A stretch of DNA of 64,000 bases from Streptomyces sp. Edi2. Lineage in GTDB: Bacteria > Actinomycetota > Actinomycetes > Streptomycetales > Streptomycetaceae. The position numbers were made by a program, and so were the translations under genes. Below, one piece after another: positions 2,667-53,490 of the stretch. Every line of letters begins with the position of its first letter. The first letter of the stretch is position 1. The notes beneath the pieces were generated by a model, which had not been told where the DNA came from, made no database searches, and saw only the letters and a list, made by a program, of their open reading frames with translations. The stretch spans positions 2,418,001 through 2,482,000 of the forward strand of contig NZ_JBEJGX010000003.1 in NCBI RefSeq assembly GCF_040253635.1, written 5' to 3'.

Positions 2667-3678
2667 CCGGTGTGGCGGGCCCCGGTACCAGAACCTCCGG
2701 CACGGGGGCCTGCGGTACGGGGACTTCCGGGACCGCCACCGCGCCCGCCTCCGGCACCGCCACCGCGCCCGGTTCCGGCCGGCCGCCCAGCACCGCGCGC
2801 GCCGCCCGCTCCGCCAGCTCACGCCGGTCCCAGAACCCGTCAGCCGGGTTCAGCACCGGATGTGCCGTGACGCGGACGGTCAGCGCCCGGGCGGCGAGCA
2901 CCCTGCGGAGCGAGGCGGCAAAGGTGTCCTCGCCGCAGAACGCGGCCACCGTGCTGGGCAGGCCCTGCTGGGTGTATTCGAGGGTCACCGGGCGGACCGG
3001 CGCGCCCGCGTCGAGGGCGGCCTGGAAGGTGGCCCGGCGGAAGCTGCCCCGGTCGGCGGTGCACCAGGTGGTGGCCTGCGGGAAGACCGCCACCGACCGC
3101 CCGGCGCCGAGCAGTTCGGACACCTCCCGGACAGTGTGCCGCAGCCGGCGGGGGCTCGTACGGTCGATGAAGTGCGTACCGGCTCTGCGGGCCAGACCGC
3201 CGACGACCGGCCAGGTGCCGACCTCGCGCTTGGCGAGCAGGGTGACCGGTTCGACGGCGAGCAGGGCGAGGATGTCGAGCCAGGAGATGTGGTTGATGAC
3301 GATGAGGGTGCCGGGGCCAGGGCCGGGGCCGTTGGCGGGGCCGGGGCCGGTGCCGAAGTCGAGGCCGTTGGCGGGGCCGAGGCCGGAGCCGGAACCGAAG
3401 CCGATCCCGTAGCCAGGGCCGGTGCCGTCGCCGTCGCGATTGCCCGCGGTGAGCGCGGCCGCGCCCTCGACGCGGACTCCGAGCGCATCGAGCAGCGCCC
3501 CGGCGTGGGCCCGCAGCCGTACCGGGTCGGCCATCCGCTCCCCGTCCGTCAGCGCCCGCCGTACGCAGCGGGCGAACGCGGCGCCGCGCCGGGCGATGCG
3601 GGTCGCCGGTACCCGCGGCAGGGCGTGGGCGGCGCAGTCCGGAGTGCAGTCGGACCAGACGTCCCAGGGGCCGTTCAC
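2647..3678 (-). CDS. 1-acyl-glycerol-3-phosphate acyltransferase family protein, OlsA-like
   Basis: The protein has 343 residues with a PlsC-type domain. The HX4D catalytic motif is NHISWLD (His130, Asp135). The usual FPEGT block reads FPQATT at about residue 199, an atypical variant. The GTG start at 3678 overlaps the upstream GNAT stop by 4 nt (GTGA), which fixes the start. A low-complexity Gly/Pro insert (about residues 80-123) sits directly before the HX4D motif, and the C-terminal 45 residues are a Pro/Val/Glu repeat tail. In ornithine-lipid synthesis OlsB makes lyso-ornithine lipid and OlsA adds the second acyl chain. The tight coupling to an OlsB-like GNAT supports that pairing, though glycerophospholipid acylation cannot be excluded. 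Confidence 0.78.
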   Translation of the reverse strand: MNGPWDVWSDCTPDCAAHALPRVPATRIARRGAAFARCVRRALTDGERMADPVRLRAHAGALLDALGVRVEGAAALTAGNRDGDGTGPGYGIGFGSGSGLGPANGLDFGTGPGPANGPGPGPGTLIVINHISWLDILALLAVEPVTLLAKREVGTWPVVGGLARRAGTHFIDRTSPRRLRHTVREVSELLGAGRSVAVFPQATTWCTADRGSFRRATFQAALDAGAPVRPVTLEYTQQGLPSTVAAFCGEDTFAASLRRVLAARALTVRVTAHPVLNPADGFWDRRELAERAARAVLGGRPEPGAVAVPEAGAVAVPEVPVPQAPVPEVLVPGPATPDAPARV

Positions 3679-12222: not shown

Positions 12223-12870
12223 GTGACCACGCGCCGCAGACTCGATCCCGCCGAGCGCCGGAGCCAACTGCTCGGCTTCGGCGCCCAGCTCTTCGCGGCG
12301 AAGCCGTACGACGAGGTGTTCATGGAGGAGGTCGCCGAACGGGCCGGCATCTCCCGTGCGCTGCTCTACCGCTACTTCCCGAACAAGCGCGATCTGTTCG
12401 CCGCGGTCTACCAACAGGCCGCCGACCGGCTGCTGGCCCGGACGCAACTCGACCCGGCCCGCCCCGTGCGCGAGCAGCTGTCCGCCGGACTCGATGCGCA
12501 CATCGACTACTTCATCGCGCACCGGAACACCGTCCTCGCGGCGAACCGGGTACTCGCCGGCGACCCGGTGATCCAGGCCGTCATCACCGACGAGCTGTCC
12601 GAGCTACGACGGCGGCTGCTCGACTCCACGATGCTCGGCGAGGGCCCCCGTCAGATGGTGTCGGCGGCACTGATGAGCTGGCTGGTGTTCGTCCGCACCC
12701 TGTGCGTGGACTGGCTGACACACCAGGCGTTCAGCCGCGCCGAACTGCACGACATGTGCGTCGGCGCCCTGCTGGGAGCGCTGCGCCCGGTCATGGACGT
12801 CGACGCGCCGCCGGCCGACGGCGAGCAGCACCCCACGGACCGTAAGCCCGGCGCTGCCGACGCCCGTTGA
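12223..12870 (+). CDS. TetR/AcrR-family transcriptional regulator
   Basis: The 215-residue protein starts at GTG 12223 (VTTRRRLDPAERR) after AACCTGAGGGGT. The alternative upstream ATG lies inside the operator and is rejected. The helix-turn-helix is at residues 30-62: FMEEVAERAGISRALLYRYFPNK, a strong TetR signature. The C-terminal ligand domain is helical. Autoregulation and control of the divergent DUF4345 gene are inferred from the operator. The gene is followed by a REP-like element. Confidence 0.88.
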   Translation: MTTRRRLDPAERRSQLLGFGAQLFAAKPYDEVFMEEVAERAGISRALLYRYFPNKRDLFAAVYQQAADRLLARTQLDPARPVREQLSAGLDAHIDYFIAHRNTVLAANRVLAGDPVIQAVITDELSELRRRLLDSTMLGEGPRQMVSAALMSWLVFVRTLCVDWLTHQAFSRAELHDMCVGALLGALRPVMDVDAPPADGEQHPTDRKPGAADAR

Positions 12871-12899
12871 CCCTTCGTCGCCGCCCAAGGGCACACCAC

Positions 12900-13147
12900 A
12901 CTGGGAAACGCCCACGCCAGCGGCCCGCCCCCACCCACCTTCACTTACTCCACCCACGGGAGGGGACGGGCCGGAGGGGCCGGTGTGTGGGACGTAAAGC
13001 GAAGCAGTCCCACACACCGGCCCCGCAGGCCCGTCACCGCACCCACAGCCCCGCGCAGCGGACCGGCCCGCCGCAGGCGAAACAAGAGAAACCCCCACGG
13101 CGGGCCAGCCGAAAACGTGCCGAGGCAAAGCGCAGCGAACGGCCCCC
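12900..13147. repeat. REP-like intergenic element, copy 1
   Basis: The core hairpin is 12965-13035. The outer stem is GACGGGCC with GGCCCGTC and the internal loop is gga/gca. The 18-bp inner stem is GGGGCCGGTGTGTGGGAC (12976-12993) with 13007-13024, and the loop is GTAAAGCGAAGCA (12994-13006). A tail follows with GCGCAGCGGAC, GCCCGCCGCAGGCG, AACAAGAGAAACCCCCACG and GCAAAGCGCAGCG. It fills the space between the convergent TetR and pullulanase genes and may also terminate both transcripts. Confidence 0.85.
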
Positions 13148-15814
13148 TCACCCGCGCCGGAACACCGCCACCGTGCGGGCCGGCACGGTGAAGGTCCCCG
13201 ACGTCCGCGCGTACGACGCACCAGCGGCGGTGATCCGGTCCGCGCCACGGGCCTGCACGGGATGCAGCGCATAGCGGTCGCCCGCGAGTGCGCGGACGGT
13301 CTGGTCCTGGCGGTGCGGGGTGGCGTTGAAAACGATGACGAGGTGGGCGAGCCGCATGGTGATCACGCCGGGGGTCTCGTCCTTCCCGGAGAGCGGGAAG
13401 GACAGCGCCGACTGGACCCGGGCGGTGGTCGCAAGGCCGAAGGCCGGTTCCGTGGCGTGGATGCGCAGCAGGTCGCGGTAGGCGGCGGAGGCCTGGTGGA
13501 CCGCGGCGCAGCCGGGGCGGAGCGCGGGGTCGGCCAGGAGCGGCCGGGCGTAGGGCCACTTGTCCTTGTTGTCGGCGGCCGGCGGCAGTCCGCGGCCGAA
13601 GCCGTTGCCGTCGGCGCAGTTCCAGTGCAGGGCGTTGAACCAGTCGCCGCTGTCGAAGGAGTTGCGGTCCAGGGACTTGGAACGGAGGAGGTCGGAGCCG
13701 GCCTGGGAGAGCGCCGGGCCCTGCGAGAGGGCGGCGGTGGCGAGGGCGAGCACCTGCATACGGGAGCGGTCGGCGGCGCCGGTGCGCGGCGGGAGTTTGT
13801 AGGCGAGGGCGTCGTAGAGGGTTTCGTTGTCGTGGGCGTCGGCGTAGGCGAGGGCGTCGCCGGGGGCGGCGGCGTAGCCGGCCGGGGCGCCGTTGTAGTC
13901 GATCCGGGAGCCCTTGACGCGGTGGCCGGTGCTGTCGGTGAAGGTGTAGTCGGCGAGGTTGCCGGTGAGCCCGACCTTGATGAGGTCCTGGTAGTGGAGG
14001 AGCCGGGCGCGCTGCTCGGCCGGACTCCCGTTCTCCTTCGATGAATTGGGGTCGGTATAGAGGCCCGAGGCGAAGCCCTGGACGCGGGGGTCGCCGTCGA
14101 ACGGGCTGCCGCCGCGGACCGCGTCCCGGGCCCGGTCGCTGAAGGTCGCGATGCCGGTGCCGGCCATGTTCCGCTGGGTGGCCTGGACGAAGCGGGCGTC
14201 GTTCGCGGCCTCGCCGAAATTCCAGCCCTCGCCGTAGAGGACGATCCTCTTGCCGTCGACGCCATCCTTCTCGGGAGTCAGCGCGTCGAGGGCCTTTCTG
14301 ACGGCCAGGATGTTGGCCTTGGGGTGGTGCCCCATGAGGTCGAAGCGGAAGCCGTCGACCTTGTACTCCTTGGCCCAGGTGACGACGGAGTCGACGACGA
14401 GCTTGCCCATCATGGTGTGTTCGGGAGCGGTGCCCGAGCAGCAGGTGGAGGTGGCGACGCTGCCGTCGTCCATGAGCCGCTGGTAGTAGCCGGGGACGAT
14501 CCGGTCCAGGACGGAGTGCGCGTCCTGGCCGCTCGCTGCGGTGTGGTTGTAGACGACGTCCATGACGGTGCGCAGTCCGGCGCCGTTGAGGCCCTGGACC
14601 ATGCGGCGGAACTCGACGGTGCGGGCCGGGCCGCCCGGGTCGGAGGCGTAGGACCCTTCCGGGACGGTGTAGTGGAGCGGGTCGTAGCCCCAGTTGTAGG
14701 CGTCGCGGCCGGCCGTCTTGCCGATGCAGTCCTGCTGGCGGTCGGAGTCGGGGGCGTACGAGGCCAGGTCGCAGCCGGGGCGGGCCTGGTCGGCGGGCAG
14801 CTCGGGCGTGGTGGCGAAGTCGAAGGCCGGCAGCAGGTGGACGTAGGAGGTGCCGGACCGGGCGAGGGCGGCGAGGTGCCGCATGCCGTCCGAGCGGCGG
14901 TCGGTGAAGGCGAGGTACTGACCCGGGTGGCGGGAGGTGCGGTCCTCGACGGAGAAGTCGCGGATCTGCAGTTCCTGGATGCGGGCACGGCGCAGCGGTA
15001 CCGCGGCGGGCTTCGTCAGCCCCGACCAGCCGGGCGGGGCGAGTTCCGGGTCGTCGAGGTCGGTGACCACGCTGCGGGCCGAGTCGGCGGTCAGCGCGGT
15101 GGAGTAGGGGTCGGTGACCTTGTTGGTGACGGTCTTGCCGACGGTGGGCGCCCAGACCGTGACGAGGTAGCGGTACGGCTTTCCGGTCCAGTCGCGGGTG
15201 CCCGTGGCGCGCCAGATGCCGGTGGCGTCGTCGCGCCGCATCGGGACGGTACGGCCGTCGAGTTCGAGGGCGACCGTGCGGGCGGTGGGCGCCCAGACGG
15301 AGAGGGCGGGACGGCCGTGGCGGAAGACCGGGCCGAGCGCGGCGTGCCGGGCGCGGGCGCCGTAGAGGTCGTCCAGGACGCCGGGTATCTGGACGCCGGT
15401 GGTGGCTCGCCCCCCGTCGGCCGTGCGCTGGGTGGCGAGCAGTTCGCCGCGCAGGGCGGTACGGGCGAGGTGGCGGTCGCGGGGGTCGACGGTGAAAGCC
15501 GGGTAGCCCGTCAGATGCGGATAGGCGAGCCGTTCGGACGGGCTGAGGGTGCCGGGCCTGAGCCGTATCCGCTTGCCGTGCGCCCCGAACTCCAGTTGGG
15601 AGGCGGTGTGTTCCGCGCCCTTCCAGATGACGGTGTCGCGGTCGATCCACTGGGCCCCGGCGTCGGCCGGTCCGGATTCCGGACCGGCCGCCTGCGCAGG
15701 GCGTGGCGGGGACGAGACGAACAGGGCCGCTGCGCCGAGGACAACGGCGAGGGCGGCGGCCAGGCGCCGGCGGGGGCGACGCGCGGCGGGGAACCGGCGT
15801 GGGGTGGAGGACAT
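13148..15814 (-). CDS. pulA: secreted pullulanase-type alpha-1,6-glucosidase (GH13)
   Basis: The protein has 888 residues with a Sec signal: RRPRRRLAAALAVVLGAAALF, ending near AQA. An N-terminal carbohydrate/accessory region and an isoamylase-type N domain (residues 150-240, SVWAPTARTVAL) precede the GH13 barrel. Visible motifs are YNWGYDP, VMDVVYNHT, DGFRFDLMGHH (nucleophile Asp near 491), LYGEGWNFGE (acid/base Glu near 527) and ADAHDNETLYD near 661. The YNWGYDP motif is diagnostic for pullulanases. It would debranch glycogen- or pullulan-like polymers outside the cell and feed the maltodextrin transporter encoded 16 kb away. GCAAG half-sites like those in the mal promoter lie just upstream. 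Confidence 0.92.
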   Translation of the reverse strand: MSSTPRRFPAARRPRRRLAAALAVVLGAAALFVSSPPRPAQAAGPESGPADAGAQWIDRDTVIWKGAEHTASQLEFGAHGKRIRLRPGTLSPSERLAYPHLTGYPAFTVDPRDRHLARTALRGELLATQRTADGGRATTGVQIPGVLDDLYGARARHAALGPVFRHGRPALSVWAPTARTVALELDGRTVPMRRDDATGIWRATGTRDWTGKPYRYLVTVWAPTVGKTVTNKVTDPYSTALTADSARSVVTDLDDPELAPPGWSGLTKPAAVPLRRARIQELQIRDFSVEDRTSRHPGQYLAFTDRRSDGMRHLAALARSGTSYVHLLPAFDFATTPELPADQARPGCDLASYAPDSDRQQDCIGKTAGRDAYNWGYDPLHYTVPEGSYASDPGGPARTVEFRRMVQGLNGAGLRTVMDVVYNHTAASGQDAHSVLDRIVPGYYQRLMDDGSVATSTCCSGTAPEHTMMGKLVVDSVVTWAKEYKVDGFRFDLMGHHPKANILAVRKALDALTPEKDGVDGKRIVLYGEGWNFGEAANDARFVQATQRNMAGTGIATFSDRARDAVRGGSPFDGDPRVQGFASGLYTDPNSSKENGSPAEQRARLLHYQDLIKVGLTGNLADYTFTDSTGHRVKGSRIDYNGAPAGYAAAPGDALAYADAHDNETLYDALAYKLPPRTGAADRSRMQVLALATAALSQGPALSQAGSDLLRSKSLDRNSFDSGDWFNALHWNCADGNGFGRGLPPAADNKDKWPYARPLLADPALRPGCAAVHQASAAYRDLLRIHATEPAFGLATTARVQSALSFPLSGKDETPGVITMRLAHLVIVFNATPHRQDQTVRALAGDRYALHPVQARGADRITAAGASYARTSGTFTVPARTVAVFRRG

Positions 15815-36661: not shown

Positions 36662-36679
36662 CCCCCTCCCCTGCAGGCG

Positions 36680-37014
36680 CCTGCGACGGGCCGGTCCGCT
36701 GCGGGTCCGCTGCGCTTTGTTGCAGGCCCACGTGTTCGGCCGTCCCGCCGTGGGGACTTCTCGCCGTTGCGCCTGCGGCGGGCGGGTCCGCTGCGCTTTG
36801 CCCCTGCCCACGTTGTCGGCTTTCCCTTCGTTGCGCCTGCGGCGGGCGGGTCCGCTGCGCTTTGCCCCTGCCCACGTTGTCGGCTTTCCCTTCGTTGCGC
36901 CTGCGGCGGGCGGGTCCGCTGCGCGGGGCTGTCGGGGTGCGGTGACGGGCCTCCGCGGGTGGGGTGCCGGACTGCTTCGCTTTACGTCCGGCACCCCACC
37001 CGCTCCGGCCCGTC
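36680..37014. repeat. REP-like intergenic element, copy 2 (inverted) with 64-bp tandem tail
   Basis: Tail modules come first. TTGCGCCTGCGGCGGGCGGG begins at 36767 and 36831 and again at 36895, an exact 64-bp period. The core hairpin is 36944-37014: outer GACGGGCC/GGCCCGTC, internal loop tcc/tcc, inner 18-bp stem GCGGGTGGGGTGCCGGAC (36955-36972) with 36986-37003, and loop TGCTTCGCTTTAC, the reverse complement of the loop in copies 1, 3 and 4. The inner stem differs from those copies yet is perfectly paired. Confidence 0.85.
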
Positions 37015-37175
37015 CCCTCCCGTTGGGTGGGTGGGAAGAAGGCCGGTGGGGGTGGCTGTGACTGGTCCGGTGCTCGTCGTGGACGTAGGGGAATGCCCGT
37101 GGGCACAGGCAAATGGCCATGGCGCGGGGAATGGGCTGCGGCACGGGGAAATGTCTGTGATCGACGCCCGCCCCC
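37015..37175. other. spacer between head-to-head REP-like elements
   Basis: About 160 bp between copies 2 and 3, flanked by CCCCTCCCG/CGGGAGGGG. It contains no supported gene, and the middle shows no repeat. Confidence 0.5.
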
Positions 37176-37440
37176 ACCCACCTTCACCATCTCCCCCACG
37201 GGAGGGGACGGGCCGGAGGGGCAGGGGTGTGGGACGTAAAGCGAAGCAGTCCCACACACCGGCCCCGCAGGCCCGTCACCGCACCCACAGCCCCGCGCAG
37301 CGGACCCGGCCCGCCGCAGGCGCAACGGCGGGAAAGCCAAAAACAGGGGCGAGGCAAAGCGCAGCGAACGGGCCCGCCGCAGGCGAAACAAGAGAAACCC
37401 CCACGACGGGAAAGCCGAAAACGTGGGAGACCCCCGGCGC
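37176..37440. repeat. REP-like intergenic element, copy 3 (forward)
   Basis: The core hairpin is 37207-37277, with GGGGCAGGGGTGTGGGAC (37218-37235) facing 37249-37266. Two mismatches separate this arm from a perfect stem. The loop is again GTAAAGCGAAGCA. Two tail modules follow, each with GCGCAGCG, CCCGCCGCAGGCG and GGGAAAGCC. The element ends just before the glnE stop. Confidence 0.85.
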
Positions 37441-37455
37441 AAGCCGGAGAGGCGA

Positions 37456-53028: not shown

Positions 53029-53037
53029 ACCGCCCAG

Positions 53038-53160
53038 GTCGGCTTTCCCGCCGTGGGGGTTTCTCTTAGTTGCGCCTGCGGCGGGCGTGGGTTGTCGGGT
53101 GCGGTGCCGCTCCTCCGGACTTCGTCCTGCGGCGCGGCCCCTCCCGTGAGTGGGTGGAAG
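53038..53160. repeat. REP-like intergenic element, copy 5 (inverted, decayed core)
   Basis: It carries the tail motifs in reverse (GCTTTCCCGCCGTGGGGGT, TTGCGCCTGCGGCGGGC) and a shortened core in which GGAC-TTC-GTCC replaces the long stem and 13-nt loop. CCCCTCCCGTGAGTGGGTGG then leads into the long palindrome at 53161-53210, which joins it head-to-head with copy 4. Confidence 0.7.
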
Positions 53161-53210
53161 AACGTGGGTGGGGGTGCACGTAGTCACTTACGTGCACCCC
53201 CACCCACGTT
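53161..53210. repeat. perfect 22-bp-arm inverted repeat at a REP-element junction
   Basis: The arms are 53161-53182 and 53189-53210, loop GTCACT. The arm begins AACGTGGGTG and ends GTGCACGTA. Pairing continues imperfectly outward through GTGGGTGG/CCACCCAC and CCCCTCCCG/CGGGAGGGG, giving about 45 paired bases per side. It is the strongest cruciform-forming site in the window. Confidence 0.9.
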
Positions 53211-53440
53211 CATCCACCCACGGGAGGGGACGGGCCGGAGGGGCCGGTGTGTGGGACGTAAAGCGAAGCAGTCCCACACACCGGCCCCGGAGGTCCGTCA
53301 CCGCACCCACAGCCCCGCGCAGCGGACCCCGCCCGCCGCCAGGCGCAACGGCGGGCGCACCGCGCAGCGGGCGCAAAACGGCGAGCAACCCCCACGACGG
53401 GAAAGCCAAAAACGTGGGAAACAAGCCAAGCGCAGCGGTT
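53211..53440. repeat. REP-like intergenic element, copy 4 (forward)
   Basis: The core is 53229-53299. The inner stem is identical to copy 1 (53240-53257 with 53271-53288), with loop GTAAAGCGAAGCA (53258-53270). The outer stem is GACGGGCC with GGTCCGTC, where one G-C has become a G-T wobble, so pairing is kept. The tail has GCGCAGCGGAC, CCCGCCGCC and GGGAAAGCC blocks. Confidence 0.85.
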
Positions 53441-53484
53441 TGTCGGAGACATGTCGGCGCCCTGTCGGTAGCGCCTGACACATT
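53441..53484 (+). promoter_or_regulatory. three TGTCGG direct repeats at 11-bp period before the ABC exporter
   Basis: TGTCGG begins at 53441, 53452 and 53463, exactly one helical turn apart, followed by CACATT (53479-53484) as a possible -10 and GGCGGC-ATG. SARP-type activators bind heptamer direct repeats with 11-bp spacing just upstream of the -10. A SARP gene lies immediately after this operon on the other strand. TGTC-N10-GACA (53463-53480) is an alternative inverted reading. Confidence 0.6.
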
Positions 53485-53490
53485 GGCGGC

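Follow-up and report, generated by a model that had tools for sequence, protein, structure and literature searches.

Four hairpins with the same 13-nt loop lie between genes in the 64-kb stretch of Streptomyces sp. Edi2 DNA analysed here (the window, G000:C3:2418001-2482000, where G000 is the strain's own 9.8-Mb genome). They raise the question of what kind of element they are and how their stems are kept palindromic.

The hairpins of the window and the full unit

Pattern searches of the 64-kb window placed 71-nt cores at 12965..13035, 36944..37014, 37207..37277 and 53229..53299, in agreement with a sequence-only reading of the same DNA. All four have the 13-nt loop GTAAAGCGAAGCA, and no further copy of this loop was found in the window with up to two mismatches. 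The stem and loop layout described for four "intact" cores is present, but two of them are slightly imperfect: the outer stem of 53229..53299 has one G-T pair, and the inner stem of 37207..37277 has two mismatches. Folded as DNA, the loop strands of the four cores gave −30.7 to −37.2 kcal/mol (z of −7.5 to −10.1), and 0 of 200 shuffles folded as well in each case. The cores also fold far better than shuffles as RNA.

All three core-holding spacers are intergenic, as had been proposed, with gene context taken here and below from our own codon-score gene caller and not from annotation. A plain intrinsic terminator was rejected, no T being present in the 20 bases that follow each window core. A terminator scan of 12700-13300, restricted to loops of 3 to 8 nt and blind to the core, returned one site, in the tail. 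An Rfam RNA family was likewise discarded, with 0 matches at gathering score in the window; nor was a named Streptomyces family found in the parts of the open-licence PMC literature that were covered, in keeping with the earlier statement that none was known.

The simplest spacer (12871..13147) has convergent stop codons, which were checked, on either side of a single-core element that is preceded by about 50 bases of other sequence. Its core (plus strand, allele CCGGTGTGTGGGAC) is followed by two tail hairpins with GNA triloops recognised by sequence reading, CCGC-GCA-GCGG at 13051..13061 and CGCC-GCA-GGCG at 13069..13079 (both plus strand), and by a palindromic end module on the minus strand (13092..13121) found by pattern search, with three mismatches to CCCACGTTTTYGGCTKTCCCGCCGTGGGG. 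The two-core element at 36662..37455, also between convergent stop codons, has end modules found in the same way at its left (36727..36755, plus strand) and right (37399..37427, minus strand). Its left core (36944..37014, minus strand) carries allele CGGGTGGGGTGCCGGAC, while by allele comparison the right core (37207..37277, plus strand) looks like a chimera in which the 5' arm of the CAGGGGTGTGGGAC allele and the 3' arm of the CCGGTGTGTGGGAC allele are joined in the loop. The third spacer (53029..53490) separates tandem genes that we take to be panB and an ABC-transporter gene. It contains a degenerate left end module recognised by eye (53033..53059, plus strand), a reduced core with a GAA loop (GGAC-GAA-GTCC; 53106..53138, minus strand; reduced-core pattern and folding), a central palindrome of two 22-bp arms and a 6-nt loop (53161..53210; sequence reading), the standard core (53229..53299, plus strand) and a right end module (53389..53418, minus strand; pattern search). 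The assignment of the standard cores rests on pattern search, pairing and folding. The GAA-loop reduced core, the end modules and the two-core layout had been missed by the sequence-only reading.

The full unit is composed of two head-to-head cores, smaller flanking hairpins and palindromic end modules, and lies in a spacer downstream of a gene. Two cores with non-identical stems stand head to head at 16 sites of the own genome, and most sites also have smaller palindromes and end modules. The end module CCCACGTTTTYGGCTKTCCCGCCGTGGGG is itself a palindrome with 39 matches at up to three mismatches in the own genome (control, 0), none of them away from known sites; at this threshold it flanks both sides of the element at 12 of the 28 own sites, one side at 9 and neither at 7. 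Inward from the end module follow tail hairpins of the types CCGC-GNA-GCGG and CGCC-GNA-GGCG, the foot, the core, a spacer and the mirrored second half. End modules recur within the tails in variable number.

Among the 80 unique pairs from all loci fetched, the loop-to-loop distance is mostly about 165-330 bp (range, 85 to 711), and in none are the partner stems identical. In the own genome, one of 16 pairs has stems within three mismatches of each other, against 4.5 by random pairing (140 of 5000 shuffles as low). A sub-family of the own genome (L195, L197, L198, L199, L201 and L206) has a foot of another kind and lacks end-module matches at all six of its sites. A second short palindromic repeat (GGGGGTACCTCCCAYGCCCTTCAGGC...GGGGGAG type) was seen in or beside element tails in G390 (L293), G348 (L294) and G090 (L280).

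Genomic placement and distribution

Many intergenic copies had been named as the outcome that would speak for the sequence-only reading, and 45 loops GTAAAGCGMAGCA were found (24 on the plus and 21 on the minus strand) versus 0 for the reversed-pattern control. Copies were counted by exact patterns, judged sufficient because the loop is invariant; copies with changed loops or closing pairs are thereby under-counted. The sequence-only reading had named few copies, or copies mostly inside coding sequence, as the outcome that would speak against it; the 45 copies are intergenic. All lie on contig C3, in the interval from 0.857 to 6.60 Mb of its 9.12 Mb, and the last 2.5 Mb of this contig are free of them. 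The loops group into 28 sites, comprising 16 head-to-head pairs, one same-strand pair and 11 single cores; five copies have a long-loop form with about 50 extra bases between the 5' arm and the loop.

Divergent spacers are avoided. The 28 own sites fall in 14 convergent and 14 tandem spacers, and the 12 sites fetched from the relative G064 in 6 and 6, with no divergent spacer in either genome, versus 15 convergent, 80 tandem and 27 divergent background spacers in the same sequence (n=122). With sites treated as independent, no divergent spacer in 28 would arise with a probability of 9e-4 if weighted by pair share, 3e-5 if only spacers of at least 50 bp are counted and 6e-7 if weighted by spacer length. 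One site (L187) was called inside an open reading frame and is counted as intergenic, the orthologous frame stopping at 3237, just beyond the element. In the spacers read from end to end (the panB-like locus and loci 3 and 6), the element mostly begins only a few bases beyond the upstream stop codon; where the genes converge, a similarly short gap separates its end from the next stop codon.

Copies in other Streptomyces genomes, which the sequence-only reading had suggested searching, were found with a 19-nt loop pattern in 15 of 392 genomes. Carriers among the matches listed are S. lydicus, S. nigrescens, S. albospinus, S. kronopolitis, S. sioyaensis, S. albireticuli and S. eurocidicus, a partial list drawn from 80 of at least 120 matching stretches. 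The reduced core, with a GAA or GGA loop, is present in 6 of 295 genomes. The 19-nt pattern has 39 copies in G000, 49 in G064, 0 in G090 and 1 in G137, and the reduced core 73 in G090, 35 in G137, 9 in G294, 4 each in G000 and G048 and 1 in G036. The dominant core type therefore differs between species, G090 and G137 being rich in reduced and G000 and G064 in standard cores. Another Streptomyces, G725, has 8 loop copies, none as the 19-nt pattern, and all eight are hairpins closed by GGC/GCC.

Outside the genus, the 19-nt pattern gave 2 matches in 354 genomes of the class, and the bare 13-mer gave 6 versus 5 for its reversed control, which is chance level. Two of these six top long GAC/GTC-closed hairpins with unrelated stems; they occur singly in two Actinomycetes of other families (L326 in G446 and L327 in G498), and L326 also has a GGA/GGA 3x3 internal loop. 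One record in the plasmid collection, the 2.8-Mb linear plasmid p1 of Streptomyces sp. BHT-5-2, has the pattern at 6 places. Phage carriage was dismissed, with 0 exact matches for the 19-nt and 17-nt patterns in viral contigs.

Filled sites, empty sites and the replacement of stems

Comparison of orthologous spacers showed units to be present in some genomes and absent from others. Among the best 30 of 294 genomes matching the panB-like gene, a standard or reduced core follows this gene in four (G000, G294, G064 and G137) and in none of the other 26; in G191, G175 and G265 the spacer is short and plain, though cores occur elsewhere in these genomes. A transposase-like sequence follows the panB-like gene in G194 (L230), and we take it to resemble an IS5-type transposase gene.

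Six further loci were compared across as many as 12 genomes. Five of these (G000, G064, G294, G348 and G390) have the element at locus 3, and six are empty there. At locus 5, the 13-kb site of the window, G000 and G390 have the element, G348 retains a remnant of the tail, and G090 has what looks by eye like a decayed reduced core. At locus 6, the 37-kb site, the element is present in G000 and G294; G137 has one reduced core there, G090 has reduced cores, G348 and G390 keep tail remnants, and nothing was seen in G064, G191, G175, G265 and G311. At locus 4, 11 of 12 genomes have a standard or reduced core motif, and G090 has an end-module match only. These filling patterns indicate that some sites are old and shared and that others are patchy by gain or loss. 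Nine of the 12 sites fetched from G064 correspond to G000 loci, with flank identity of about 90%, and a tree from gene ends groups G000 with G348 and G390, followed by G064 (one split with support of 0.65). Such shared sites could be insertions of long standing in a family that has moved little of late. Visual comparison of diverged spacers, filled and empty, at four loci (panB, 3, 5 and 6) showed no recognisable target-site duplication.

The stems themselves are nearly perfect. Of 175 unique 71-mers, 16 pair at less than 15 of the 18 inner positions and were set aside, as were copies with N or cut by contig ends; of the 159 unique cores kept, 113 have a perfect 18-bp inner stem. The 86 distinct inner alleles contain 1462 pairs, of which 1428 are Watson-Crick (97.7%), 14 G-U (1%), 4 A-C and 16 other, versus about 29-81% pairing expected with independent arms at the variable inner positions. 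Foot pairs at a fixed offset gave 33 G-U and 84 other mismatches in 640; this count was replaced by one on the 150 of 159 cores with feet in register, in which 30 of 568 pairs in distinct feet are G-U, versus 12 of 1326 inner-stem pairs. The near-absence of G-U indicates that the palindromy of the inner stems seems to be maintained at the DNA level.

Stems differ species-wide at shared sites. The 3' arms are identical at 1 of 15 positions in sites common to G000 and G064, and class-B stems at shared loci have one allele in all 6 G064 copies and three other alleles in the 7 G000 copies. This is concerted evolution. No trace of locus-wise inheritance of stems was found in these few data, with 1 match in 14 same-class pairs versus 2.1 by random dealing. 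Between species, the A and B stem classes have traded left and right places at loci 4 and 5, as either reinsertion or an inversion between the inverted arms could bring about. At locus 7 (L197), which belongs to the sub-family without an end-module match in the own genome (one match, in G191), stems are nearly alike in several species, and concerted change is therefore not universal.

Chimeric cores such as that at 37207..37277 are present. The loop has its native orientation in the scaffold in 212 of 259 contexts, 7 were flagged as inverted and 40 were undetermined; by our reading of the 7 flagged contexts, at least three cores appear to have the loop inverted. In yeast, homogenisation of arms and inversion of the spacer through template switching have been described in part of PMC8604942, and arm-to-arm switching is reported from yeast as well as other organisms, with a proposal that extends it to RNA hairpins, in portions of PMC8604942 and PMC8794818. 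The stem data fit copy-to-copy exchange combined with arm-to-arm template switching of this kind.

Origin of the repeat and its relation to known systems

The proposed REP/REPIN likeness survives in part: the many intergenic copies, often in inverted pairs and without a T-run, stand, but membership in REP/REPIN does not. True REPINs would be mobilised by a RAYT, an HUH tyrosine transposase that recognises the hairpin, and the head-to-head doublets (16 in the 28 own sites), the placement at 3' ends and the stable single-strand hairpins agree with this. The expected transposase, however, is largely missing, with a Y1-transposase match in 2 of 13 genomes, the own one included, and in none of 11 of the 12 relatives, among them G064 with 49 cores by the 19-nt pattern and G090 with 73 reduced cores. 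The sole match in the own genome is a 157-aa frame; neither the loop nor the foot motif occurs in the 3.4 kb around it. The unpaired GTAG or CGTC tag at one end of a 20-40 bp palindrome, by which REP/REPIN are defined in the relevant part of PMC3733652, is also absent from the 71-nt core, the GACG/CGTC ends of which are base-paired. The repeat is therefore not a REPIN by the defining feature, though built and placed alike, and we consider RAYT mobilisation highly unlikely. That the repeats are MITEs of a DDE insertion sequence now lost or rare, with the end modules as its terminal repeats, is unlikely. End modules on both sides at 12 of the own sites and on one side at 9, and discrete filled and empty sites, speak for it; against it, the end pattern (up to three mismatches) is confined to known sites in the own genome, no target duplication was seen by eye at the four diverged loci, and the modules recur in tails in varying number.

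Host-selected bidirectional 3'-end structures (terminators, mRNA stabilisers or insulators) would account for the lack of divergent spacers among the 28 and 12 sites examined, for a symmetric layout that reads the same from both genes and for the 30 G-U to 3 A-C mismatches in the in-register feet, as expected if the loop strand folds. This is nonetheless a doubtful account, given that the exact pattern is absent from 377 of 392 Streptomyces genomes, that 26 of the 30 fetched panB-like junctions have no core and the spacer is short in close relatives, that the window cores lack a T-run and that inner stems are nearly free of G-U pairs. GNA triloops make up 107 of 182 triloop hairpins in element spacers (stem of at least 4, one strand) versus 137 of 1243 in flanking genes, and shuffles (n=50) gave a mean of 13.5 GNA in 120.8 triloops, with a maximum of 21. 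GAA or GCA is also the tip of 4 of the 7 short-loop hairpins on the 3'-ended strand at the end of the G064 chromosome, and Tap binds telomeric hairpins with GCA loops according to part of PMC4513846. These tips could mark interior telomere-like sites, that is, DNA hairpins bound by Tap/Tpg or a similar single-strand hairpin protein, which we regard as very improbable. The element copies are not independent, so that the GNA excess reflects a few module types. GNA loops with at least two G-C pairs are moreover extra-stable DNA mini-hairpins (GCGAAGC melts at 78 C) in the part of PMC4686876 that covers them, and convergence on such triloops would be easy. The standard 13-nt loop contains GCGAAGC and is left open as DNA by the folding program, with no GC-GAA-GC mini-hairpin, and among 12 contig ends inspected, a telomere-like appearance is limited to the two of G064 and one of G294. 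The resemblance of GNA tips to telomere hairpins may serve as a lead. Both ends of G064:C1 (L330 and L331) have identical 1-kb ends with dense palindromes tipped TGC, TTC or GTT, and this assembly seems to reach its telomeres.

A related conjecture, rather unlikely in our view, is that the loop is a recognised apex of single-stranded DNA or RNA, and that the GCGAAGC tip, the reduced GAA/GGA loops and the CCGC-GNA-GCGG tails all bind one protein, possibly Tap or a paralogue. If so, a single hairpin-binding protein would explain a frozen loop with free stem sequence, as well as the identical loop and GGA/GGA internal loop atop an unrelated hairpin in a distant Actinomycete.

The explanation that we favour, and consider fairly probable, is a lineage-limited, non-autonomous family of modular palindromic repeats, REP/BOX/MITE-like and unnamed. 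The family is probably homogenised by recombination and template switching: copies would exchange sequence by ectopic gene conversion, and template switching during replication would re-perfect the stems. New sites may be seeded by a trans-acting factor acting on the folded single strand, and insertions upstream of promoters may be purged. Any effect on transcription end or mRNA stability would be putative or a by-product. Several observations count against this explanation, namely that no transposase or parent element was found and end modules occur only at known own-genome sites, that no target-site duplication is recognisable by eye at the four loci, that locus-7 stems are similar across species, against concerted change as universal, and that none of the 80 pairs has identical partner arms, contrary to what homogenisation free of constraint would lead one to expect. 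A fixed loop in mostly fixed orientation suggests selection that drift plus conversion leaves unexplained.

Orthologous Streptomyces sites with hairpin stems rewritten in step make the upkeep of perfect palindromes testable, and likewise the spread of non-autonomous repeats without a RAYT. Covarying stems could here be wrongly read as proof of RNA function. The family also supplies candidates for interior DNA hairpins that bear telomere-type tips.

Among known systems, we place the repeat with the REP/BIME/BOX kind as an unnamed variant. BIMEs are mosaics of several palindromic motifs, and the present unit is of the same design; size and host differ, and stem turnover here is species-wide. Gene conversion was reportedly proposed for REP evolution by Higgins in 1988. 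REP/REPIN elements with a RAYT in Pseudomonas and E. coli are, in the portions of PMC3116915 and PMC3733652 concerned, equally palindromic and intergenic, with inverted doublets in mostly tandem or convergent spacers. The repeat described here differs in its 71-nt core, 13-nt loop, paired GACG/CGTC ends and long mosaic scaffold, and its inner stem is almost without G-U, whereas GT pairing is frequent in GTAG REPs (section of PMC3733652). The same part of that source describes CGTC-tagged REPs that are also without a known transposase, with stems of 8-9 bp and loops of 4-5 nt. Streptomyces telomeric palindromes share packed DNA palindromes and GCA-type loops closed by sheared G:A (part of PMC4513846; G064 end). 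The present repeat is in contrast interior, at gene ends, with an 18-bp stem and 13-nt loop, and no homology was seen past short tips and a module of the CCCGC-GAA-GCGGG type. BOX, RUP and SPRITE of Streptococcus pneumoniae are likewise small interspersed repeats, near-single-lineage and rich in secondary structure, and are read as parasitic in part of PMC3049150; the Streptomyces repeat is distinguished from them by its paired, non-identical cores and perfect covarying stems.
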